Shown here one piece after another: positions 119-37,107 of a stretch of 37,121 nucleotides of DNA. Under the pieces are notes generated by a model. That model was not told the DNA's origin and ran no database searches. It saw only the letters and a list, made by a program, of their open reading frames with translations. Source of the DNA: an uncultured Eubacteriales bacterium (GTDB lineage Bacteria; Bacillota; Clostridia; Christensenellales; Aristaeellaceae). The stretch is from contig CADBZH010000001.1 in the NCBI GenBank assembly GCA_902799045.1, positions 152,595 through 189,715 on the forward strand, written 5' to 3'. Numbering within the stretch: position 1 is the first letter of the stretch; each line of letters begins with the position of its first letter. The translations under genes were made by a program, and so were the position numbers.

Positions 119-1570
119 TTACAGCGGGATGTTCCCGTGCCTGCGCCTGGCGATCATGCGGCGGATCGCGGGCCGGTAGCCCATGCGGTTCAGCGCCTCG
201 ATCAGCCTGTCGCGGGTCTCCTCGGGCCGGATCTCGGCGGTGATGTAACCGCGCTTGAGGCCCAGCCGGGTGTTCATCACCTCGCGGCGATACTGCTCGG
301 CCTTTTCATCCAGGAACGCGCGGGCCTGCTGGGCGTCCATGCTGCGGGTCTCGCGGGCGTAGAGGATCTCCACCGCACCCTGTTCGCCCATCACGGCCAC
401 CTCGGCCCCGGGCCAGCTGAACACGCAGTCCGCGCCGATGTGGGCGCTGTTCATGGCGATGTAGGCGCCGCCGTAGGCCTTGTGCAGGATCACGTTGATC
501 TTCGGCACGGTGGCCTCGGAGAAGGCGTAGAGCAGCTTGGCCCCATGGCGGATGATGCCGGCCTGCTCCTGGGCGATGCCCGGCAGGTAGCCCGGCACGT
601 CCGTGAACGTCACGATGGGAATGCGGAAGGCGTCGCAGAAGCGCACGAACCGCGCGGCCTTGTCGCTGGAATTGCAGTCCAGCACCCCGGCCATGTGGCG
701 CGGCTGATTGGCGATGATGCCCACCGTCTCGCCGCCCAGCCTGGCGAAGCCGATCATTACGGATTTCGCGAAGTCCGGCTGAAGCTCCATGAACGATTTC
801 ACGTCGAATATGTTGGCGATGATCTCGCTGATGTCATAGCCCCTGTGGCTGTCCTCGGGCATTTCGAATTTGAAGATGGGCGCGTTGGCGTCCACGTAGC
901 ACTTGAGCCGCCGGTCGCGGCAGTTCGAAGGGATCATGCTCACCAGCCGGCGCACCGCCATGAAGCATTCCAGCTCTGTGTCGGTGCAGAAGCTGGCCAC
1001 GCCGCTGTTCGCGCCATGCATCACGGTGCCGCCCAGCGCCTCGCCGGTGATGCTTTCGCCGGTCACGGCGTGGATCACCTTCGGCCCGGTGATGAACATC
1101 TGGCTGATCTTCTCGGTCATGAAGATGAAATCGGTGATGCCGGGGGAGTAGACCGCGCCGCCGGCGCAGGGCCCCAGGATCATCGAAATCTGCGGGATGC
1201 GCCCGGAGGCCTTCACGTTGCGATAGAAGATATCGCCATAGCCGGACAGGGCGTCGATGCCCTCCTGGATGCGCGCGCCGCCGGAATCGTTCATCGAGAT
1301 GAACGGGCACTTTTTGCGCATGGCGCGATCCAGGCCCATGGCGATGTTCTGGCCGTGCTTGAGCCCGAGCGTGCCGCCCTTGTAGGTGAAGTCCTGGGCG
1401 GCCACGACGACGCGCTTGCCGGACACCATGCCCTCGCAGACGTATACGCCGTCGCGGGTCTCCGGGGTCGTCAGCTCCTCGTAGCTGTGGTTGTCAAACA
1501 GCAGCTGCAGCCGCTCCTCCACATAGAGCTTGCCCTTCTTGTGTTGCTTTTCAACTAACTTTGCGTCCAT
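119..1570 (-). CDS. Acyl-CoA carboxylase carboxyltransferase subunit
   Basis: The 483-residue protein is a biotin-dependent carboxyltransferase of the propionyl-CoA/methylmalonyl-CoA carboxylase beta family, which moves a carboxyl group between biotin and an acyl-CoA. The crotonase-fold features are present: NDSGGARIQEG near residue 100, GPCAGGAVYSPG around 140, an acyl-CoA-binding GAEVAVMGEQGA segment near the C-terminus, and the family's typical HGNIPL ending. The length is normal. I chose ATG at 1570 because GAGGG lies 8 bases upstream and the family normally begins there; an open frame continues upstream without a ribosome binding site. It follows fabD in the same direction, suggesting fatty-acid or malonyl/propionyl-CoA metabolism. 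The sequence alone does not separate acetyl-, propionyl-CoA carboxylase or a decarboxylase alpha subunit. Confidence 0.88.
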   Translation of the reverse strand: MDAKLVEKQHKKGKLYVEERLQLLFDNHSYEELTTPETRDGVYVCEGMVSGKRVVVAAQDFTYKGGTLGLKHGQNIAMGLDRAMRKKCPFISMNDSGGARIQEGIDALSGYGDIFYRNVKASGRIPQISMILGPCAGGAVYSPGITDFIFMTEKISQMFITGPKVIHAVTGESITGEALGGTVMHGANSGVASFCTDTELECFMAVRRLVSMIPSNCRDRRLKCYVDANAPIFKFEMPEDSHRGYDISEIIANIFDVKSFMELQPDFAKSVMIGFARLGGETVGIIANQPRHMAGVLDCNSSDKAARFVRFCDAFRIPIVTFTDVPGYLPGIAQEQAGIIRHGAKLLYAFSEATVPKINVILHKAYGGAYIAMNSAHIGADCVFSWPGAEVAVMGEQGAVEILYARETRSMDAQQARAFLDEKAEQYRREVMNTRLGLKRGYITAEIRPEETRDRLIEALNRMGYRPAIRRMIARRRHGNIPL

Positions 1571-4063: not shown

Positions 4064-4139
4064 GCCAATGTAGCTCAGTTGGCAGAGCAGCGGTTTCGTA
4101 AACCGCAGGTCAAGGGTTCGAGTCCCTTCATTGGCTCCA
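4064..4139 (+). tRNA. tRNA-Thr (anticodon CGU)
   Basis: The cloverleaf is complete. The acceptor stem is GCCAATG (4064-4070) with CATTGGC (4129-4135). The anticodon stem GCGGT/ACCGC encloses the loop TTCGTAA with anticodon CGT at 4097-4099. The T-loop is GGTTCGAGTC, and CCA is encoded (4137-4139). It reads ACG threonine codons and is co-transcribed with the tRNA-Pro 6 bases downstream. Confidence 0.96.
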
Positions 4140-4145
4140 TGACTT

Positions 4146-4222
4146 CGAGGTGTAGCGCAGTTTGGTAGCGCGTTTGGTTCGGGACCAAAAGGTCGCAGGT
4201 TCAAATCCTGTCACCTCGACCA
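4146..4222 (+). tRNA. tRNA-Pro (anticodon CGG)
   Basis: The acceptor stem is CGAGGTG (4146-4152) with CACCTCG (4212-4218), followed by A and an encoded CCA. The anticodon stem TTTGG/CCAAA holds the loop TTCGGGA, giving anticodon CGG for CCG proline codons. The first base C is usual for bacterial tRNA-Pro. The prophage integrase gene lies 416 bases downstream and points toward it, making the 3' end of this gene the leading candidate for the attachment site. Confidence 0.96.
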
Positions 4223-4223
4223 A

Positions 4224-4251
4224 AAACCAGCCTGTAAAGGCTGGTTTTTTT
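4224..4251 (+). terminator. Terminator of the tRNA operon
   Basis: CCAGCCT (4227-4233), the loop GTAA and AGGCTGG (4238-4244) are followed by seven T residues; flanking AAA/TTT can lengthen the stem. It directly abuts the CCA end of tRNA-Pro. Confidence 0.9.
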
Positions 4252-4588
4252 GTGCTTTCTGCACAAAAACAGTGGATTTTTACGGACTTCGCCGATTTCC
4301 CGGAGAAACGGATTGCGAAGGATTCTGCCGGATTATTTCGGATTCTGACCCAGTTTCCAGTCGCCCGCAGGCTGACGCGGAAATGGGCAGGTATGAACGG
4401 TTGCCAGCGGTCGGAACAGGCGATTTTCAGACAGGAACAGCTTTATCCGGAAAGGGTTCTGCCAGTTCATTCATGTCGCTTTTTGACAGTCAGCCGACGA
4501 ACAGGACATAGGCAGACAGGTGAAAGTGGACATGAGCGGAAGAAGCCGGCTATCATGTGAAACGCTGAAAAGTACCGAAGGGTCGCTC
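4252..4588. other. Non-coding left end of the prophage
   Basis: I see no supportable gene here; open frames across it lack ribosome binding sites and are continuations from the tRNA genes. Short related motifs recur (ACAGGACAT at 4501-4509, ACAGG at about 4432 and 4517), which might be integrase or excisionase arm sites, but they are too short to be sure. Confidence 0.4.
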
Positions 4589-4627
4589 CAAAAAATCAAG
4601 CCCCAGACTCATCGAGGAGCCTGGGGC
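4589..4627 (-). terminator. Terminator of the integrase gene
   Basis: GCCCCAG (4600-4606) and CTGGGGC (4621-4627) form a 7-base-pair stem. Read on the minus strand it is followed by TTGATTTTTT. It lies 11 bases after the integrase stop codon. Confidence 0.75.
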
Positions 4628-4638
4628 GCGTTGTCGAT

Positions 4639-5751
4639 TTACTCTTCCCTCTTTCGGAATACCTCGTCCATGTTGACGGTGCTCTTCTTCAGCATCTCGT
4701 CGCGGATGTGGGTGTACACGCTGGCGGTGGTCTGGTAGTCGCTGTGCCCGGCAATCTTCATGGCGATCAGCGGGTCGACCCCGGCCTCGTAGAGCAGCGT
4801 GATGTAGTTGTGCCTAAAGTAGTGCGGCGTGATGATGGGCTTGATACACTTCAGGATGTCGTTCTCGCGGTTGGTGTTGGGCTTCTTCTCGCGCCATTCT
4901 ACGCAGTCCGCCGCCAGCATCAGACGGCACCAGATGCGCTTGAAGGTCGCCTGGGACAGAGGCTTGCCGTTTCCAGATTGGAAAACATACTCGCCAACCC
5001 GTCCCTTCTTCTGAAGCAGCAGCTCCTTCAGCTCCGGAGGAATCGGGATGTAGCGGTCGGCAGCGGCAGTCTTGAGCGTACCCTCCTGGGCCGTGGGACC
5101 GGTAAAGTCAATGTCGCGCTGGATGTGAACCTGGTCTTCGGTGAAGTCAAAGTCGCCCCACTTGAGCCCCAGGGCTTCACCGCGGCGGACGCCCGTATAG
5201 TACAGAACCGCCAGGAGAAGCCCATCCGGGTGATTCCGCGCGATGTGAAGGATCCGTTTCGTCTCATCAGACGTCAGCGGCCTGCGCTCATTTCTGGTCA
5301 GCGACTTCGGACGTACCAGTGCTACCGAAGGGTCGCGCGGAATGATACCCTCCGCATAGGCACAGGAGAAGATGTTCTTCAGTATTCCAACGCACAGCGT
5401 GATGGTGCTCTTGCTTGCTCCGGCAAACTCGTTCAGAAAGGCCTGCAGCTGATTGGCATCGATGGCCGTCAGATGCTGCAATCCGAAGACCGGAAGCAGG
5501 TGCTTGACGAACATGGATTTGTAGCTCGACCGGCTGGCGCTGCTGATGAAGGGCTCCTTCTTCAGCCGATACCAGTTTTCCGCGTACTCATAGAATAACT
5601 GGTCTTCAGGGATTTGCCTGCCGTAAAGATAATGCTCTTTGCAGGCCTGCTTCGCTGATTCCAGTGCCTCCGGGGTATCCCCGGAGACGTTCTTGTCGAT
5701 GGGCTTGCCGTCCGGCGTGTAGCCGATTCGGACTTTTCCGCGTAACGCCAT
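4639..5751 (-). CDS. int: Tyrosine recombinase (phage integrase)
   Basis: The 370-residue integrase catalyses site-specific insertion and, with an excisionase, removal of the prophage. It has the three-part plan of this family: an N-terminal arm-binding AP2-like region (residues about 1-60), a SAM-like core-binding domain (about 60-155), and the catalytic domain. Catalytic residues are visible: Arg189 (GVRRGEAL), His310 and Arg313 (HYFRH), His336 (GHSDYQTT) and the nucleophile Tyr346 (SVYTH). The start at 5751 follows AAGGAGGT. It is encoded 3 bases after the excisionase-like gene, so the two are one operon, and it ends in its own terminator. Its direction toward tRNA-Thr/tRNA-Pro is the usual geometry of tRNA-targeting elements. 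Confidence 0.95.
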   Translation of the reverse strand: MALRGKVRIGYTPDGKPIDKNVSGDTPEALESAKQACKEHYLYGRQIPEDQLFYEYAENWYRLKKEPFISSASRSSYKSMFVKHLLPVFGLQHLTAIDANQLQAFLNEFAGASKSTITLCVGILKNIFSCAYAEGIIPRDPSVALVRPKSLTRNERRPLTSDETKRILHIARNHPDGLLLAVLYYTGVRRGEALGLKWGDFDFTEDQVHIQRDIDFTGPTAQEGTLKTAAADRYIPIPPELKELLLQKKGRVGEYVFQSGNGKPLSQATFKRIWCRLMLAADCVEWREKKPNTNRENDILKCIKPIITPHYFRHNYITLLYEAGVDPLIAMKIAGHSDYQTTASVYTHIRDEMLKKSTVNMDEVFRKREE

Positions 5752-10101: not shown

Positions 10102-13100
10102 ATGAGATACGGTCAGCTCATCAACTTCGACCCCATTGTAACGGTCATCGAGCTGCGCAGTGCCGACGACGCCACCAAGGCCAGAGAACTGGTCTCCAGC
10201 TACGTGATGTCCGATTCCATGGCGGAACTGATCGAAGTGAAGATCCTGTCCCAGCTGAATCTGGAGGACGTGGTCGACAACAAGGGTGTGCTGCTGGTGG
10301 GCAACTATGGCACCGGTAAATCGCACCTGATGAGCGTGACCTCCTCCATCGCGGAAAATGCTGATCTGCTTCAGTATGCCCAGAACGCCCGCTTCCGCAG
10401 CGCCGCCCAGGTAATCGCCGGGCGGTTCGAGGTGCTGCGCATCGAGATTGGCGCGACCTCTATGTCCCTGCGCGATATCATCACGCGAGAGATCGAACGG
10501 GATCTGGGCCGCCGCGGCATCCGCTTCAAGTTCCCGGACGTGGGCTCCGTCGTGGGCAACAAGGACGCGCTCAACGACATGATGGCCGCCTTCGACGAGA
10601 AGTATCCCAACAAAGGCTATCTGCTGGTGGTGGACGAGCTGCTGGACTACCTGAAGTCCCGCAAGGACAATGAGCTCATGCAGGACATCAACTTCATGCG
10701 CGAGCTGGGCGAATTCATCAAAAACAGTCGCTTCCGCCTGATCTCCGGCGTCCAGGAGGCGCTGTTCGATAATCCCTCCTTCCACAATGTCTCCAATTCT
10801 CTTCTTAAAATGAAGGATCGCTACGAACAGGTGCTGATCCGCTCCCAGGATATCGCCTACGTGGCCAAGCAGCGCGTGCTGCGCAAGACGGCGGAGCAGC
10901 GCGCCATGATCCGCGAGCATCTGGAAAAGTATTGCCCGCTGTATCCCGGCATGTCTGAGCAGTTGGATGAATATGTGGATCTGTTCCCCATCCATCCGGC
11001 ATACATCGACACTTTCCAGCGCATGATCATCGTGGAAAAGCGCGAGGTACTGAAGACCATCTCCGAAACCATCCGCGATATCATCGACCGCGACCTGCCT
11101 CAGGCTGGACCGGGCATCATCTCCTACGACAGCTACTGGACGCGCATCAAGAACGACCCGGGCAAGCGCGTGGAGCCCGCCATCGCCGAGGTGCTTCAGA
11201 AGAGCGGCGTGCTGGAGGACATCATCCGGCGCTCCTTCCCCAAGGCTGCTTACAAAGAAACCGCACTGAAGATCATTGCCGCGTTGTCGGTGCATCGGCT
11301 TACCACCGCTACTCTGGACGCACGTCTGGGCCTGACGGCGGAAAACCTGAAGGACGAGCTGTGCATCTACATGGTCATGCCCCAGAACGACCCTGTGTTC
11401 CTGCTCTCTACGGTGCAGAGTGTACTGCGCACCATCATGACCACGGTCAGCGGCCAGTTCATCGAATATAATAAGGATAATGAGCAGTACTACCTCGACC
11501 TGAAGAAGGACGTGGACTACGATGCCAAGATCACGGAACGCGCCACATCGCTCTCCGATGATCGCATGAACACCTACTTCTTCGGCCTGATCTGGGACTG
11601 CCTCGACTGGCATCCGGAGGCCCATGTCACTGGCCACCAGATCTATCAATATGCCGTCAATTGGATGGAGCGCAATCACTACCGCGAAGGCTACCTGTTC
11701 ATGGGTTACAGCAACGAGCGCCCGACGGCCCAGCCGCCCAGGGACTTCTACGCCTACTTCCTGCCGCCCTACGGCCAGCCGGTGGGTTCACCCAAGCCCC
11801 AGGAGGACGAGGTATACTTCGTCTTCCAGAAGAGCCCGGAGTTTGAAGCCATGCTTCGCTACTATTCCGGTGCCCGGGAGTGCGAGGTGTTCGCGTCCCA
11901 GGGCGAAACCAAGAACGCCTACGCCCAGCGGGCCAAGCAGAAGGCCAAGCAGATCATCCACTGGATGGATGAGCACAAGACCACCGCGTTCAAGGTGGGC
12001 TACAAGGGCCAGATGCGCACGATGCTGGAATGTCTGCACGGCGTGCGCATGGACACGCTGACCATCAAGTCCGCCGTGGACATCTGCGTCTCCCGCACAC
12101 TGAATGGATTCTTTACCGGCAAATATCCGGACTTTCCGAAGTTCAAATCCCCGGTCACGCTGCAGAACCAGATCAATATCCGCACCATCACCATGGAGAC
12201 CATCGCGGGCAAGCCCTCGAAGCTTGGCATCGACACCCTGGAAGCGCTGGGCCTGTGGCTGAACGACAAGGTGAAGCCGGAGAACTCAAAATACGCCACC
12301 TACTACATCCAGCAGCTCTCCAAGCTGCCGGAGGGCTCCGTGCTGAACTTCTCCGACATCATGGATGGCGGCGAGGAGCTGACCTACTACGATAAGCGCT
12401 TCAGGCTGCCGGATGTGTTCTTCAGCATCGTGCTGGCCACGCTGGTGTATGGCGGCTATTGTGTGCTGGTTGCCGGCGACAATACCCGATACGACGCCTC
12501 CAACATCGACAAGATGGCCAAGGCCAACTCCACCGACCTGTTTGGCTTCAAGCGCCTCGAAAAGCCCAAGGCCGCGCCGGTGATGCGGCTGCGCAGGCTG
12601 TTTGGCACACTGGGCATCAACGATGGGCTGATCGTTAATCCCAATACCTGGGATACGGCGGTGGAGGAGCTGCTGAAGGTCACGAAGGCCCGCTCAGAGG
12701 AGACATTCCATTTCGAATCCTTCCTGGGCAAGGGCACCTGGCTGTGGGGCGACAGCATTGTACCGATGCACATGGTCGATGGCTTCAAGAAGGATATATC
12801 TCCTTTGCGCAAGCTCTACGACGATGTGCGCAGCCGCTTCAACAGCGCCCCAAAGCTCAAGAATTTTGACTATGATGATGCGGCGCTTCAGGCCATAGAG
12901 CACGCTATGGAGCGCATCGGCATCCTGCGCACGGCGGAGGAGTTCAAGAACACCGTCGGCGACATTATGCAGTACCTCTCCCAGGCGGAGCTCAAGGTCG
13001 AGGATGGCACCCCGCTGCGAACCCGGTTCACCGAGGCCAAGCAGGCGTGGCTGGATATGCGCGACCATCTGCTGGAGCCGGATTACGACGTCACCGAGAC

Positions 13101-33893: not shown

Positions 33894-33917
33894 AGAAAAA
33901 CCGCCCCGGAGGGCGGC
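33894..33917 (-). terminator. Terminator of the leftward small-gene operon
   Basis: CCGCCC (33901-33906) and GGGCGG (33911-33916) form the stem; on the minus strand it is followed by TTTTTCTGTC. It lies 16 bases after the last gene's stop codon. Outer complementary CCGGGCG/CGCCCGG segments (about 33924-33930 and 33882-33888) could enclose it. Confidence 0.8.
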
Positions 33918-33932
33918 TTGTGTGCCGGGCGG

Positions 33933-34151
33933 TCAGACGGCCATCGGGTAGGCGTTCTTCCCGGCGCTGTTCGCGGCGACCAGCTTCAGGCAGTATTCGG
34001 AGATGCTGGGCATGGCCCGGCGGATGCGCTCCTCGCCGTCCAGCTTGGCGAGCAGAATGTGCGTGATGTAATCGTGGGTATCATCGTTGAACCAGTCGAG
34101 AATGTCCATGCAGGTTTCAAAGCTCAGGGTGTTCTTGCGGGTGTCTTTCAT
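33933..34151 (-). CDS. Small phage protein, unknown function
   Basis: The 72-residue protein begins MKDTRKNTLSFETCMDILDW and is helical, with no membrane segment or known motif. The start at 34151 has AAGGAGGA upstream. It is the last gene of the leftward operon and its stop TGA is followed by CCGCCCGG, the same tail as after the gene at 35653-35820. Confidence 0.72.
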   Translation of the reverse strand: MKDTRKNTLSFETCMDILDWFNDDTHDYITHILLAKLDGEERIRRAMPSISEYCLKLVAANSAGKNAYPMAV

Positions 34152-34173: not shown

Positions 34174-34410
34174 TCACAGCTGTGCGTCGTCGTTGTCCTG
34201 TGCGTCAAACTCCTTCATGATTTCGTAGATTTCCTGCGGGTCGGCGACGATACCATCCTCCCGCAGCAGGTCATCCGCGAGGCTGAGGGAATCTGCCAGC
34301 GACCACCTGATGTGCTGGCCGTCCACCTGTATCGGGCCGTAAACCTCGCCCAGCAGGAACGCGGGCAGGTCGAAGGAGCCGTCCAGATTCAGGAGCTCGG
34401 GGTTAATCAT
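34174..34410 (-). CDS. Small acidic phage protein, unknown function
   Basis: The 78-residue protein begins MINPELLNLDGSFDLPAFLL and is strongly acidic towards the end (MKEFDAQDNDDAQL). GGAGGAATACACG precedes ATG at 34410; the frame is open further upstream into the ribozyme region without a signal. It is the first gene after hammerhead ribozyme 34446-34507 and would be translated from the cleaved transcript. Confidence 0.72.
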   Translation of the reverse strand: MINPELLNLDGSFDLPAFLLGEVYGPIQVDGQHIRWSLADSLSLADDLLREDGIVADPQEIYEIMKEFDAQDNDDAQL

Positions 34411-34445
34411 CGTGTATTCCTCCCTGGTTTCATAGTGTGCGGCTT

Positions 34446-34507
34446 TCCGCGACGCTCCCGATTCCGGAGCGTTTCGGCCCGGAGCCACCGGGCCCTCGTC
34501 AGGCGGA
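34446..34507 (-). ncRNA. Hammerhead ribozyme (type I), copy 1
   Basis: On the minus strand the order is stem I 3' arm UCCGC, core CUGACGA, stem II hairpin (GGCCCGG/CCGGGCC with one bulged base, loop UGGCU), GAA, stem III ACGCUCC/GGAGCGU, and cleavage triplet GUC followed by stem I 5' arm GCGGA. All core nucleotides are intact. Cleavage would fall between 34451 and 34450. Stem I (GCGGA/UCCGC) differs from copies 2 and 3 (GCGGG/CCCGC) by a compensatory change. It lies just after the amidotransferase-like gene and about 35 bases before the next start. Confidence 0.9.
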
Positions 34508-34524
34508 TGGGTGGCGCGACCGGG

Positions 34525-35121
34525 TTACCAGCCGCGCCGATTGGTTCTCAGGTAGCTGTCGTTGGAGTACAGCAGCCCCTTCTCGTTGATGAAGCTCCCG
34601 ACCGTGGCGATGTATCCGCTGCCGTCCATGATGGCCAGCTTGGAGCCCGCCAGCCGGTGCACCAGCTTCAGCACACCCTCGTCCTTCAGGTCTTCCGAGC
34701 AGCGGATGATTTCGGAGAGGTAGTCGGCGATGAACAGCGCCGTGTCGCTGTACTCCTTGTTGGTGGGGTCGGTGGTCAGGCGGATGATGCCGTTGTGGGC
34801 GACTCCGCAGCGGCATTCTACATCCAGCGCTTTCATGTGCGCCAGCTTATTCGAAAGCGGGAAGGGATGCGTCATCGCCGGGTTCACACCAGCTTGCGTG
34901 CTGATTCTGAAGTGGTACACCACCGCGTCCTTCGCGGTGAAGTGCTCAGCCCGCAGCGCCTCGATGTAGCTCTCCACGTCCATGTAGCCCTTGCTGATGT
35001 GGACGATGCCGTCGCGGGCGAACATGTAGCCTGCGCCGTGGGGGTTGTGCTGGAACATGGTCTTGATGGTGGCCAGCGAGGGCTGGCGGACTTTTCTGGG
35101 GGAAACACAAATGATGCACAT
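34525..35121 (-). CDS. Class II glutamine amidotransferase-like (Ntn hydrolase) protein
   Basis: The 198-residue protein begins MCIICV; Cys2 would be the N-terminal nucleophile after methionine removal, as in class II glutamine amidotransferases. Further family-like parts are HNPHGAGYMFARDG, VVYHFRIST (the Arg/His of the glutamine pocket), and CGVAHNGIIRL, followed by SDTALFIADYL. No synthase domain is attached, so the partner or substrate is unknown. The start at 35121 has AGGAGG 9 bases upstream. It is flanked by hammerhead ribozymes on both sides and would end up on its own single-gene transcript. Confidence 0.85.
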   Translation of the reverse strand: MCIICVSPRKVRQPSLATIKTMFQHNPHGAGYMFARDGIVHISKGYMDVESYIEALRAEHFTAKDAVVYHFRISTQAGVNPAMTHPFPLSNKLAHMKALDVECRCGVAHNGIIRLTTDPTNKEYSDTALFIADYLSEIIRCSEDLKDEGVLKLVHRLAGSKLAIMDGSGYIATVGSFINEKGLLYSNDSYLRTNRRGW

Positions 35122-35162
35122 AATGGGAACCTCCTGCGTGTGTATTTGGAAGCCGCTGGCTT

Positions 35163-35233
35163 CCCGCGACCGCCAGCCGGATTCAGAAGCTGTGCGGTTT
35201 CGGCCCGGTGCCGCCGGGCGCTCATCAGGCGGG
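35163..35233 (-). ncRNA. Hammerhead ribozyme (type I), copy 2
   Basis: On the minus strand: CCCGC, core CUGAUGA, stem II (bulged as in the other copies, loop CGGCA), GAA, stem III ACCGC-a-CAGC paired with GCUGGCGGU around an 11-base loop, GUC, then GCGGG. Cleavage would fall between 35168 and 35167. It starts two bases after the stop codon of the upstream gene. Directly after the cleavage site GGAAGCC/GGCUUCC (35148-35164) forms a hairpin sharing two bases with stem I. Confidence 0.92.
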
Positions 35234-35235
35234 GT

Positions 35236-35535
35236 TCATTGCTGTGCGCGTTTGAAGCGGCGGTACTCGATTTCGATTCGCCATGTGATACAGTCCTCAA
35301 ACCGCCTGCAGTACTCGATGTACTCGTGGTTCGATTTGAGAGCCTCCGGGCTCAGGTGCAGCATCAGCCCGCGGATGCGCGGTGTGGCGTCGCCGTCATT
35401 GTAGAAGCGGTAGTAGCGGTGAAAGGTGTCTTCGGTGGTCTTGTTGTACTCCCACCCGGCGGCTTCCATCTCGTCGTACTTGGCCTGTGCCGCGCCGCGC
35501 CTGTTCCAGTAGCAGTTCATGAAGTCAAAATCCAT
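35236..35535 (-). CDS. Small phage protein, unknown function
   Basis: The 99-residue protein begins MDFDFMNCYWNRRGAAQAKY and is rich in aromatic and charged residues (TFHRYYRFYNDGD, then YCRRFEDCITWRIEIEYRRF). I recognise no family. The start at 35535 has GAGGAGG upstream. Its stop codon immediately precedes ribozyme copy 2. Confidence 0.72.
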   Translation of the reverse strand: MDFDFMNCYWNRRGAAQAKYDEMEAAGWEYNKTTEDTFHRYYRFYNDGDATPRIRGLMLHLSPEALKSNHEYIEYCRRFEDCITWRIEIEYRRFKRAQQ

Positions 35536-35652
35536 GCTGTGCGCCTCCTCTTGCTGTATTTCGGAGCCCGCGCCTGCGGGCATGCCATTCATCACTCTGC
35601 CGGGCCGGGAAGTCAAGATAACTTCCTGAGTGGATTCACATCCTCCGGGCGG
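35536..35652 (-). other. Intergenic segment related to the ribozyme gaps
   Basis: This 117-base gap shares parts with the three ribozyme gaps: the tail TGACCGCCCGG at the upstream stop, TGAATCC, and the leader GGCTCCGAAATACAG before the ribosome binding site. It has hairpins GGAAGT/ACTTCC and GCCCGC/GCGGGC. A GUGAUGA ... GAAA arrangement is present, but the first core base is G rather than C and the intervening stem does not close, so it is not a working hammerhead; it may be a decayed one. Confidence 0.4.
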
Positions 35653-35820
35653 TCAGCCCCGCGACCACAGCGGGTCGCGCAGGCCGACGATTTCGTAGAA
35701 GCTGTCCTTCTGGATCAGCTGGTCGATGTAGGTTTCGCGGGCGGTATCGGATTTGAAAGCCCTGCGCTTGCACACGATGCGCCCCTTCGCGGTGATTTCC
35801 TTCCATGCGACTTCGAACAT
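35653..35820 (-). CDS. Very small phage protein, unknown function
   Basis: The 55-residue protein begins MFEVAWKEITAKGRIVCKRR, is basic and has no known motif. AGGAGGAATACACC precedes ATG at 35820. It lies 35 bases after the preceding gene's stop and is too short for firm assignment, but the signal and spacing fit its neighbours. Confidence 0.68.
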   Translation of the reverse strand: MFEVAWKEITAKGRIVCKRRAFKSDTARETYIDQLIQKDSFYEIVGLRDPLWSRG

Positions 35821-35855
35821 GGTGTATTCCTCCTTCTGTATTTCCGACCGCTGTG

Positions 35856-36119
35856 TCAGCGGCTCTGGACGATGGTGAGCTGGTACTCGCTGCCGTCGGG
35901 CAGCGTGATGACCAGACCCTTGTTGTAGGTCATGACCCCGGCCTGTTCGTAGGTCTCGACGCGCATGTTCTCCCAGCAGATTTCGGAGCCATACGTCCAA
36001 TCGCCGGTGATGAGCTGTGCCAGCCCGTCCTGCAGGTCTTCCTCCGTGAAGGTGTCGTCCTCGCGGTCTTCGTCGTCGTACAGCCACACGGAGCCGTCCT
36101 CCCTCAGTCGCTTACTCAT
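35856..36119 (-). CDS. Small acidic phage protein, unknown function
   Basis: The 87-residue protein begins MSKRLREDGSVWLYDDEDRE and is acidic in its first half (DDTFTEEDLQDGL), then beta-rich (VMTYNKGLVITLPDGSEYQLTI). AAAGGAC precedes ATG at 36119. It is the first gene downstream of ribozyme copy 3; a GGGCG/CGCCC hairpin (36134-36146) sits just before its ribosome binding site. Confidence 0.72.
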   Translation of the reverse strand: MSKRLREDGSVWLYDDEDREDDTFTEEDLQDGLAQLITGDWTYGSEICWENMRVETYEQAGVMTYNKGLVITLPDGSEYQLTIVQSR

Positions 36120-36170
36120 GGTGTGTCCTTTCCGGGCGTCTCGCCCTGTGTATTTGAAAGCCTGTGGCTT

Positions 36171-36230
36171 CCCGCGACCGGACACTGTGTCCGGTTTCGG
36201 CCCGGTGCCGCCGGGCCCTCGTCAGGCGGG
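36171..36230 (-). ncRNA. Hammerhead ribozyme (type I), copy 3
   Basis: On the minus strand: CCCGC, core CUGACGA, stem II GGCCCGG/CCGGGCC with the same one-base bulge and loop CGGCA, GAA, stem III ACCGGACA/UGUCCGGU with triloop CAG, GUC, then GCGGG. Cleavage would fall between 36176 and 36175. It begins a few bases after the stop of the upstream gene, and GGAAGCC/GGCUUUC forms a hairpin just after the cleavage site, as in copy 2. Confidence 0.92.
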
Positions 36231-36234
36231 CGAT

Positions 36235-36462
36235 TCAGAAGCTGTACGGTTCCGCGAAGGACATGCTGGCGATGTGCGCCTCGGTGCCTTCCTCCCAGTT
36301 GTGAACGATGAGCTCGATGCGTGTGTAGATTTCCAAGCTGTCGGGCTCCGCGAAAAGCCTGAAGGCTTTCCATGCCTCCGTCAGCGCGGTGTACTCGATA
36401 GTCTCGGGAATTTCGCCGGGGTCGCGGTGGGTGAACTGGAGCATGTAGGTGATTCCGGGCAT
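36235..36462 (-). CDS. Small phage protein, unknown function
   Basis: The 75-residue protein begins MPGITYMLQFTHRDPGEIPE and has an alternating pattern (EIYTRIELIVHNWEEGTEAH) suggesting a small alpha/beta fold. GAGGAGG precedes ATG at 36462; an upstream in-frame ATG lacks a signal. No family recognised. Its stop lies next to ribozyme copy 3. Confidence 0.72.
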   Translation of the reverse strand: MPGITYMLQFTHRDPGEIPETIEYTALTEAWKAFRLFAEPDSLEIYTRIELIVHNWEEGTEAHIASMSFAEPYSF

Positions 36463-36495
36463 CGGTGTTCCTCCTCTCAATTTCAAAGCTGTGGG

Positions 36496-36843
36496 TCAGC
36501 GCCGGGTGTTGAACCCGGCGATTTCAAAAGCGGTGTAGAGATTCTCCACCAGCGTGGTGGCGGTGCGCAGCCCGGCGATGACCCGGTGTGCCTGCTTCAG
36601 GCTGTGGTCGCCGTAGCCGGTGGTGCTGATTTCGAAGCGGACGGCGTCCTCGCCGTACCAGTCATCGCTGAAGCAGATTTCCGGGTACACGGCGTCGTCA
36701 GTGTCCTTCGGCTGGACAATGCTGAGGGTGATGTACTCGTCGCTGCCCCACACCCGAGCGGTGATTCGATAGCCGGTGTGCAGACGGGCAACTGTGGCGA
36801 TGATGCACAAAAGCGCCTCGCGGGTTTCCTGAGTGTTCTTCAT
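36496..36843 (-). CDS. Small phage protein, unknown function
   Basis: The 115-residue protein begins MKNTQETREALLCIIATVAR, with a helical N-terminus, a beta-rich middle (YRITARVWGSDEYITLSIVQ) and a helical C-terminus (RTATTLVENLYTAFEIAGF). No known motif. GAGGAGGT precedes the ATG. It lies 33 bases upstream of the next gene with no ribozyme between. Confidence 0.75.
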   Translation of the reverse strand: MKNTQETREALLCIIATVARLHTGYRITARVWGSDEYITLSIVQPKDTDDAVYPEICFSDDWYGEDAVRFEISTTGYGDHSLKQAHRVIAGLRTATTLVENLYTAFEIAGFNTRR

Positions 36844-36858
36844 GGGTTGTACCTCCTC

Positions 36859-37107
36859 TCAATTCCAGAGCGTGCACAGGGTGTCGACCGCTTCCCACGC
36901 CTCGTCGAAGCCGGGCAGCTTGTCCCAGCCCCGGTCGAAGGCGGCGACGGTTCCGTAGCTGTCCTTCCACGCCAGCCACAGCTTGCTGATGCGGCCCTCG
37001 TCGATTCCAAAGACACTGGGCTCCTCGAAGCGCTTGATTTCGAACCGGAACGGGCCGATGTGCCCGGTCATCCAGTTCCCGGTCTGCTTGGTGATGATGG
37101 GTTCCAT
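36859..37107 (-). CDS. Small phage protein, DUF7678-like
   Basis: The 82-residue protein begins MEPIITKQTGNWMTGHIGPF and contains EEPSVFGIDEGRISKLWLAW and a C-terminal FDRGWDKLPGFDEAWEAVDTL. It resembles small proteins I know as DUF7678 in clostridial phages, with moderate certainty; no function is known. GAGGT precedes the ATG at 37107. The operon probably continues to the right beyond the window. Confidence 0.72.
   Translation of the reverse strand: MEPIITKQTGNWMTGHIGPFRFEIKRFEEPSVFGIDEGRISKLWLAWKDSYGTVAAFDRGWDKLPGFDEAWEAVDTLCTLWN

Follow-up and report, generated by a model that had tools for sequence, protein, structure and literature searches.

Putative type I hammerhead ribozymes with a loop/tail pseudoknot in gaps of a phage gene cluster, and their relatives, most of which carry one more nucleotide next to the core

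The stretch of DNA analysed here, 37,121 nucleotides long and referred to as the window, has a phage context, with integrase, helicase and primase genes, and contains a cluster of small genes on the - strand whose gaps hold three hammerhead-like elements, designated A, B and C (Table 1). Hammerhead A lies 4 nt past the stop codon of the 75-aa ORF and 56 nt ahead of the ATG of the 87-aa ORF; B is located 2 nt past the stop of the 99-aa ORF and 46 nt ahead of the ATG of the 198-aa gene; and C follows the stop of the latter by 17 nt and precedes the ATG of the 78-aa ORF by 40 nt. These distances (2-17 nt and 40-56 nt) bear out the original prediction, in which each copy had been placed between a stop codon and the leader of the following gene, and several hammerheads flank single genes of the phage-gene cluster, as in the prophage clusters discussed below. 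The 198-aa protein matches a family of unknown function with an E-value of 3e-6, and a phage relative with 29% identity is annotated as "putative glutamine amidotransferase". For this protein no Pfam, PDB or NCBIfam match was obtained, and an amidotransferase-like protein was not found in a search of viral contigs.

Table 1. Positions of the ribozyme candidates, open reading frames and other elements in the window.
Feature	Position	Strand	Remarks
75-aa ORF, upstream of A	36235..36462	-	no Pfam/PHROG match, E<=0.1
Hammerhead A (type I), 3' tail AAGCC	36166..36230	-	predicted cut 36176/36175; 7-bp stem II, loop CGGCA
Hairpin directly 3' of cut A	36156..36172	-	7 pairs including one G-U; AGCC common to pseudoknot
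87-aa ORF, between A and promoter-like element	35856..36119	-	no Pfam/PHROG match, E<=0.1
55-aa ORF	35653..35820	-	no Pfam/PHROG match, E<=0.1
Promoter-like conserved element, between A and B	35586..35616	-	TTGACTT, then AGAGTGATGAATG
99-aa ORF (ATG 35535), upstream of B	35236..35535	-	no Pfam/PHROG match, E<=0.1
Hammerhead B (type I)	35158..35233	-	predicted cut 35168/35167
Hairpin directly 3' of cut B	35148..35164	-	7 pairs; competes with stem I and pseudoknot
198-aa amidotransferase-like gene, alone between B and C	34525..35121	-	phrog_25883
Hammerhead C (type I)	34441..34507	-	stem I UCCGC/GCGGA; predicted cut 34451/34450
78-aa ORF, downstream of C	34174..34410	-	
72-aa ORF, last of cluster	33933..34151	-	
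Intrinsic-terminator-like hairpin and T run, past last ORF	33898..33919	-	only such site on - strand

The cluster had been proposed to form one operon; with a promoter-like element between A and B, however, the supposed operon may correspond to more than one transcript. The gap around this element (35536-35652) was considered as the site of a fourth ribozyme and rejected, being conserved but promoter-like, with a fold no better than that of shuffles (z -0.46). Terminator-like sites numbered 4 against 3.4 expected by chance; the single one on the - strand sits past the last ORF, which was counted in favour of the transcript splitting proposed below, and none was found on this strand at the ribozymes. 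The simplest alternative is that the elements are intercistronic hairpins, which would stabilise messenger ends or terminate transcription. Strong, G+C-rich hairpins do follow the stop codons here, but terminator-like sites are missing at these places on the - strand, and hairpins of this kind would need neither the conserved unpaired CUGANGA, GAAA and UH nor the pseudoknot covariation reported below; the explanation is considered extremely improbable.

In all three copies CUGANGA separates the 5' strand of stem I from the stem II hairpin, GAAA stands between the hairpins of stems II and III, and GUC leads from the latter into the 3' strand of stem I. Core positions C3, U4, G5, A6, N7, G8 and A9 read CUGACGA, CUGAUGA and CUGACGA, and G12, A13 and A14, the A15.1-U16.1 pair and the cleavage base H17 are found in GAAA and GUC. 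Loops close stems II and III and stem I is open, which is the type I topology, and the cut positions originally proposed agree with this core anatomy. Two earlier observations on the stems were likewise upheld: two copies have CCCGC/GCGGG as stem I and the third shows a compensatory change there, and stem III is unlike between the copies yet paired in every one. Folding energy by itself is poor evidence for A, B and C as ribozymes (z -2.34, -1.32 and -1.48, with 5, 26 and 17 of 200 shuffles each folding as well as the natural sequence). The minimum-energy fold is the hammerhead junction for A and C; for B it is a rival structure with a downstream hairpin.

Stronger separation from chance was obtained by using a general hammerhead descriptor, which tolerates extra bases at stem II and matches the window three times, against 0.017 matches per shuffled window (1 match in 60 dinucleotide-preserving shuffles). 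A looser pattern gave five matches against 1.0 expected, among them copy A read a second time and one place within a gene, and a two-mismatch pattern gave five against 1.87, three of them exact; such patterns separate real from chance less well. The model R2, built from 8 copies all from outside the window, provided a non-circular test: at E<=10 it reports in the window A, B and C only, with E-values (rough, as for all models of the R1/R2 type) of 6e-19 to 1.3e-14, and on the remainder of the genome no match better than E 0.16. The three type I cores first proposed for the gaps of the - strand are thus recovered by descriptor and model, and the shuffled-window counts together with the R2 matches rule out a pattern-matching artefact. 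The covariation test used 8 copies, none of them from the window, and a structure written down from such copies: 98.3% of cells are paired, double changes occur in 10 of 22 pairs, and on each of five measures none of 500 shuffles was as high. Three stems covary around the core, as belongs to the hammerhead class. Stem I forms 5 Watson-Crick pairs in 81 of 85 copies, with one G-U in 2 and a mismatch in 2, a pairing that is partly present by construction because the search demanded at least 4 pairs. Covariation, geometry, placement and model searches together support the reading of A, B and C as putative type I hammerheads in phage-gene gaps.

Among 200 genomes of the host family, 31 (the window's own included) contain relatives at E<=0.1, and the longest array there counts 9 in a row. 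Of 397 further genomes of the phylum, 17 have relatives by R2; the phylum search returned 21 places outside the window, 13 of which the descriptor recognises and 8 of which it does not. The family considered below comprises 70 copies, derived from 75 R1 matches in 34 loci after 3 unfolded matches were dropped and 2 duplicates merged, with some weaker places excluded; copies within one array are not independent. Excluded from all counts were an order-level match that the descriptor fails to recognise (L064) and a place on a viral contig without a good stem I (L002, R1 32.9 bits), and a one-mismatch place on another contig (L006) was judged not to be a hammerhead. A named phage carries 3 copies, with genes around them of the kind present in the window, and one match, in a Flavonifractor phage (L082), falls within a gene annotated on the opposite strand. 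In 66 of the 70 copies an ORF ends no more than 120 nt upstream and a Shine-Dalgarno start occurs in the 160 nt searched downstream; these are observed counts without a control comparison, and where the upstream ORF end falls at -9, the ORF may be a chance one that takes the UGA of the core as its stop. For the 68 copies having a start, the distance from the predicted cut is 25-100 nt. The amidotransferase-like gene was detected in 9 of the 200 genomes, with a hammerhead 101-116 nt upstream in 5 (own included) and no ribozyme upstream in 4. Ribozymes at corresponding places in two other loci (L077 and L078), assigned to A, B and C according to the genes next to them, keep the core and the pseudoknot and have changed stems and extra base; in L078, the ribozyme at site B shows a joint change in the lengths of stem II and linker.

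A covariance search with the Rfam type I model, which had been proposed as the check, gave no score over threshold: Hammerhead_1 (RF00163) left the window copies unreported at its gathering cut-off (34 bits) and at E<=10, and the highest score within the hammerhead clan was the 14.8 bits that Hammerhead_II gave on a 101-nt slice of C. RF00163, a model of 45 positions, has the same core order and type I topology as the copies described here. It exceeds its cut-off in none of the 200 host-family genomes and gives weak places (E<=0.1) in 12 of them; 8 of these 12 were fetched (L068-L075), and the descriptor matches none of the 8. As the model misses the whole family, including copies without the extra base and all relatives scanned, its silence was dropped as a refutation, and the miss is a sensitivity gap of the model. 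The scan itself worked, since Rfam reported in similar loci, over the cut-off, a type II hammerhead (Hammerhead_II, L043) and a twister (Twister-P5, L107). Both are on the same strand as the nearby hammerheads, and in L001 an HDV-like ribozyme, below the cut-off, likewise shares the strand of hammerheads close to it.

Next to the catalytic core, at stem II, 61 of the 70 family copies carry an extra nucleotide, mostly U, a count that is probably biased upward because R1 and R2 carry this nucleotide as a column; among the 38 copies in which the base lies unambiguously behind A9, 37 have U. The 13 descriptor-recognised copies of the phylum have the extra U in 6 cases and lack it in 7. In the window, A and C show an extra G, ambiguously placed at or beside the junction; B has a C bulged out behind G10.1, and a G-C pair is possible at 10.1-11.1 in all three. 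The one-base bulge in stem II of the original prediction is thus real as a one-base excess, but is better described as an extra nucleotide beside the core. Core position 4 is U in 62 copies and C in 8 of the 70. This extra nucleotide is a departure from the textbook hammerhead consensus; in the available text of Perreault and others, candidates mispaired next to the core are said to have been discarded, and U4C to be compatible with viroid infectivity (Perreault et al., 2011; PMC3088659).

The original prediction did not include a pseudoknot, which covariation reveals between GGC of loop II and GCC of a tail just 3' of stem I. Taking the last GGY word of loop II, the 70 distinct family copies have GGC/GCC in 61, GGU/ACC in 6, GGC/ACC in 1 and no GGY in 2 (Fisher 6e-8 for the association, the copies being not all independent). 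Loop and tail words also covary in the 13 copies elsewhere in the phylum, where none of 2000 tail permutations pairs as well. Within the family, the linker that joins stem I to the tail triplet tracks the length of stem II, measuring 1 nt in 17 of 18 short-stem II copies and 2-3 nt in 50 of 50 long-stem II copies. This regularity weighs on the proposal that the copies are relics, that is, a hammerhead cassette, spread by recombination between gaps of phage genes, whose members would be inefficient cutters today, the extra base and U4C being signs of decay. Nearly identical copies inside the arrays L039 and L043, and the 3 of 75 R1 matches that fail to fold, one having GUAA instead of GAAA (L038:7644), speak for such a history; however, most copies keep the core while the stems covary, the linker follows stem II, corresponding sites retain a ribozyme, and U4C reportedly permits infectivity in the viroid case, as far as the available text goes (PMC3088659). 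Decay of this kind is regarded as quite improbable.

The best explanation as a whole is, very probably, that pseudoknotted type I hammerheads cut a phage transcript into smaller units. Ribozyme anatomy, covariation and placement can be read from the DNA, and from these we infer cleavage in the cell, the nature of the ends and an effect on messenger stability or translation. In the nascent RNA, loop II would pair with the tail and dock stem II alongside stem I, and the core would then cut after GUC. The upstream messenger would close with the hairpins of stems II and III and bear a 2',3'-cyclic phosphate; the downstream messenger would begin with 5'-OH GCGG(G/A)AAGCC, an end chemistry established for the hammerhead class. 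Phage RNA would most likely be divided in this way into units with leaders of 40-56 nt. Four transcript units, with the amidotransferase-like gene isolated, would be consistent with the anatomy, cuts B and C releasing its message alone.

After cleavage, the freed 5' strand of A and B could form its own hairpin. The hairpin noted in these two copies is present, but its suggested role as a cap meets the difficulty that it needs the GCC of the pseudoknot, so that the two are mutually exclusive; it would either rival the active fold or arise once the cut has been made. Hairpins of at least 4 pairs follow the cut in 32 of 70 copies versus 30.7 in permutations, in a count that misread 3 copies having two GGY words, and C is not among the 32. 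Natural downstream strands reach -7.93 kcal/mol versus -7.11 when permuted (sd 0.16), with 0 of 200 permutations as low. The count is therefore not above expectation, and only the energy is stronger. That energy, with the rival fold of B, argues for regulated ribozymes, a view compatible with the cutting of the transcript: the strand pairing with GGAAGCC in A and B would rival stem I and the pseudoknot, cleavage would be governed by translation, a protein or the kinetics of folding, and arrays would be switches rather than constitutive scissors. The count and the exception of C argue in the other direction, as does the consideration that the ribozyme would presumably be finished before the rival strand is transcribed, and regulation of this type is judged unlikely.

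The role of bacterial and phage hammerheads is described as open or unclear in the available texts of two sources (PMC6155905; PMC7151607). Messenger punctuation becomes testable here, since the family has many natural arrays, some of them at the same genes, with corresponding sites where the ribozyme is kept, rebuilt or replaced by a promoter-like element. The family furnishes a natural set with an extra nucleotide by the catalytic core and a U4C minority, and as many phage hammerheads escape the standard type I model, counts of phage ribozymes are likely too low. A broader reading, possible and, with all its parts taken jointly, somewhat doubtful, would be that of a widespread hammerhead subtype in phages of the phylum, overlooked by RNA family models, in which selection maintains the additional base behind A9, usually U, as a component of the active site, the linker of the short pseudoknot is adjusted to the length of stem II, arrays with as many as nine members serve as general intercistronic punctuation, and in some of them a post-cut hairpin that takes over the pseudoknot strand shields the 5'-OH.

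Among known systems, the plus-strand hammerhead of Chrysanthemum chlorotic mottle viroid, as far as its available description goes, also has an extra nucleotide in the conserved core; it belongs to a viroid RNA and the extra base is A, whereas the phage family has mostly U. In the 2001 work of De la Pena and Flores, this base reportedly lies between A9 and G10.1, and U is said to be best there. Type II hammerhead, twister and HDV-like ribozymes share loci and strand with the family and differ in topology or fold. The closest likeness is to the clusters of Perreault and others, whose available text describes several hammerheads, including a triple, flanking single genes or short blocks in prophages, with loop/tail pseudoknots and the suggestion that they process the transcripts of phages (Perreault et al., 2011; PMC3088659). 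Three in a row, held to be unusual in the original prediction, thus has a published precedent there and is exceeded by the relatives found here. According to the same text, tandem prophage hammerheads cleave in vitro, those of A. tumefaciens also when transcribed in E. coli. That text covers types I, II and III. In the present family most copies have the extra core-side nucleotide and arrays reach 9; tandem prophage hammerheads are already known, and those described here stand out by an unusual extra base and by being missed by the standard model.

The gaps of the prophage small-gene cluster carry three candidate type I hammerhead ribozymes (A, B and C), each with a full core and stems, as the original prediction had placed them between leftward small genes, where they were proposed to divide a single prophage operon. 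In every gap the minus strand reads, in order, stem I, CUGANGA, the stem II hairpin, GAAA, the stem III hairpin, GUC and the stem I partner, with a stem I 5′ strand of CCCGC or UCCGC and a matching 3′ strand of GCGGG or GCGGA. By using a descriptor of the general hammerhead that tolerates extra bases at stem II, three matches were obtained in the window, against one in 60 dinucleotide-preserving shuffles combined. The hammerhead junction is the minimum-energy fold of A (z -2.34) and C (z -1.48); for B (z -1.32) a rival fold has the lowest energy, in which a 7-bp hairpin forms downstream of the cut. The cuts predicted here for all three coincide with those originally proposed. ACAGCUU with GAA(A/U)U after it recurs in gene leaders and also inside stem III of B and of relatives (window ~35180-35200 and ~36470-36500, minus strand).

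The Rfam search that had been suggested as a check did not report these copies: no hammerhead family was found for them at the gathering cut-off, nor at E<=10 on 3.4 kb, and the top hammerhead score for a 101-nt slice was 14.8 bits, to the type II hammerhead (E 0.74). Across 200 host-family genomes, RF00163 gave no match above cut-off and weak places in 12 genomes. Two models were built from hammerhead copies. R1, from five copies (the three of the window and two of the viral contig L001), matched 31 of the 200 host-family genomes at E<=0.1, own genome counted, and R2, from eight copies with none taken from the window, recovered the three window copies and no other place in the window. Thus, the silence of Rfam is a matter of insufficient sensitivity, not of absent ribozymes. 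The extra base beside the core is not by itself the cause, because two copies lacking it (L047:210 and L030:174) are likewise unreported by Rfam.

Counting the own genome each time, R1 matched 8 of 297 genomes at order level (three of them outside the host family) and 2 of 391 at class level, and R2 matched 18 of 398 at phylum level. The largest arrays in the host family comprise nine R1 copies inside 4 kb in one genome and eight in another. L077, a Clostridia metagenome genome from sheep rectum, has six R1 copies and L078, a Clostridiales metagenome genome, has five; in both relatives the array extends upstream beyond the portion contained in the window. Among phages, the Christensenellales phage PV036454.1 has three R1 copies around an amidoligase, small genes and the amidotransferase-like gene; a second Christensenellales phage has two, and a Flavonifractor phage one, within a gene annotated on the opposite strand. 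Salisaeta icosahedral phage 1 (L080, JN880423.1) holds two intergenic hammerheads, at 10217-10281 and 10640-10702. In the window, tRNA-Thr and tRNA-Pro genes adjoin an oppositely oriented integrase gene (4064-5751), a possible prophage insertion end.

The stems and core described originally stood, and covariation added a loop II/tail pseudoknot absent from that description. All three window copies have GGC in loop II and AAGCC after stem I. Among 70 distinct folded R1 matches the loop/tail pairs were 61 GGC/GCC, six GGU/ACC, one GGC/ACC and two without GGY (Fisher 6e-8); with 15 more copies the counts became 72, nine, one and two, and one L080 copy, outside the GGY scheme, pairs loop CGC with tail GCG. 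Elsewhere in the phylum, 13 copies use the loop words GGC, GGU, GGGU, GGGA, UCGU and AGU, with matching tails in nearly all (weakest in L110, with two pairs). Their best Watson-Crick runs sum to 48; the mean under permutation is 34.5, and 0 of 2000 permutations did as well. Stem II length goes with the spacing of stem I and the tail triplet: copies with a short stem II (GGY ending 6-7 nt before GAAA) have a 1-nt linker in 17 of 18 cases, and those with a long one (8-9 nt) a linker of 2-3 nt in 50 of 50. A coupling of this kind is what docking of loop and tail would require.

The 5′ strand of stem II has at least one unpaired nucleotide beside the core in 61 of the 70 copies and none in nine, a fraction probably biased upward, since the search models contain a column for it. 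In 38 copies the base falls unambiguously after A9 and before the first pair (U in 37, A in one); an ambiguous extra G occurs in nine, a bulge after the first G-C pair in ten, two-base bulges in three and a two-base insertion in one. The stem II bulge originally ascribed to all window copies is real as an extra base in each; B belongs to the bulged copies, A and C to those with the ambiguous G. An extra U is present in 6 of the 13 phylum copies. Between corresponding loci the base varies: at site A both L077 and L078 have U and the window has G; site B shows a C bulge, an A bulge or a U left unpaired; and at site C the window has G, with no extra base in L077 and L078. An additional core base is already in print for a viroid hammerhead. 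U at that place reportedly increased the rate. A U4C core (CCGANGA) was found in 8 of the 70 copies; stems and pseudoknot are otherwise intact, and at two loci the variant recurs inside an array. According to Perreault et al. (PMC3088659), U4C reduces in vitro activity, yet sustains viroid infectivity.

The hairpin originally noted directly after two of the cuts was found in A and B, C being outside the 32 copies that have one. This hairpin and the pseudoknot are mutually exclusive, because both need the same GCC. For the 5′ end with its natural downstream strand, the mean folding energy over the 70 copies was -7.93 kcal/mol against a permuted -7.11 (sd 0.16), with 0 of 200 permutations as low; copies with at least four hairpin pairs showed no excess (32 against 30.7 by permutation). 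The hairpin may be a post-cleavage structure in some copies, or a competitor.

As raw counts, 66 of the 70 copies follow an ORF end at a distance of at most 120 nt and precede a start with a Shine-Dalgarno sequence. Among the 68 for which a start was found, 25-100 nt separate it from the cut; in the window the distance is 56 (A), 46 (B) and 40 nt (C). A survey not conditioned on ribozymes found the amidotransferase-like gene in 9 of 200 genomes. Five of these, including the own genome, have a hammerhead 101-116 nt upstream, one of them together with the motif AGAGTGAT; of the other four, two have AGAGTGAT at -50 or -59 and two neither motif nor ribozyme. Hence, either ribozyme or promoter may set the 5′ end of this message. 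Upstream of differing genes of these phages, and at 35586-35616 in the window, stands a conserved piece of non-coding sequence, TTG(A/C) with AGAGTGATGAATG or near variants after it, which appears promoter-like, with an unusual second half. By eye, a TTGACA-like promoter and a palindrome directly follow each L001 hammerhead (~1900-1960 and ~1480-1550, minus strand), so that ribozyme and promoter are stacked ahead of the same gene. The HDV-like matches of L001 share the strand of its two hammerheads, and the Twister-P5 matches lie on the same strand as hammerheads less than 1 kb away.

Coordinates of ribozymes, motifs and neighbouring features in the window and related loci
Feature	Location	Strand	Remarks
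Ribozyme A	36166-36230	-	minus-strand sequence reading
Ribozyme B	35158-35233	-	minus-strand sequence reading
Ribozyme C	34441-34507	-	minus-strand sequence reading
AGAGTGAT motif with TTGACTT	35586-35616	-	between A and B
Terminator-like hairpin	33898-33919	-	after last ORF
82-aa ORF	36859-37107	-	contig end; Pfam DUF7678, E 2.5e-20
TTG(A/C)-AGAGTGATGAATG motif	L040, L046, L052, L045, L054, L007, L044, L100		
CCGANGA (U4C) copies	L026, L029, L035, L041:1918, L043 (x3), L050 (x2), L053, L062, L108		
HDV-like, two matches	L001:373-453, 884-955	-	under cut-off; RF02682 34.4 and 33.7 bits, also RF00094
Twister-P5	L107:1821-1891	-	above cut-off; phylum-level genome
Twister-P5	L118:2227-2294	-	under cut-off; phylum-level genome
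Type II hammerhead	L043:8582-8647	-	above Rfam cut-off; locus shared with three U4C type I copies

Most likely, transcription would read through and each ribozyme, folding as it emerges, would cut after GUC, so that the messages become separate, each with a short leader and a structured 3′ end. Cleavage itself, the chemistry of the ends and any consequence for expression are inferred from the hammerhead class and from tests reported for comparable prophage arrays, of which three arrangements cleave in vitro and one when transcribed in E. coli (PMC3088659). As far as the open-access literature was searched, four features appear new: a subfamily marked by an additional base next to the core, the failure of the Rfam type I model to report it, a covarying pseudoknot with coupled linker, and arrays that reach nine copies within a single bacterial family. 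Prophage hammerhead clusters, a triple one among them, were described in 2011, as were pseudoknots for each of the three types and the proposal that such arrays process phage transcripts (PMC3088659).
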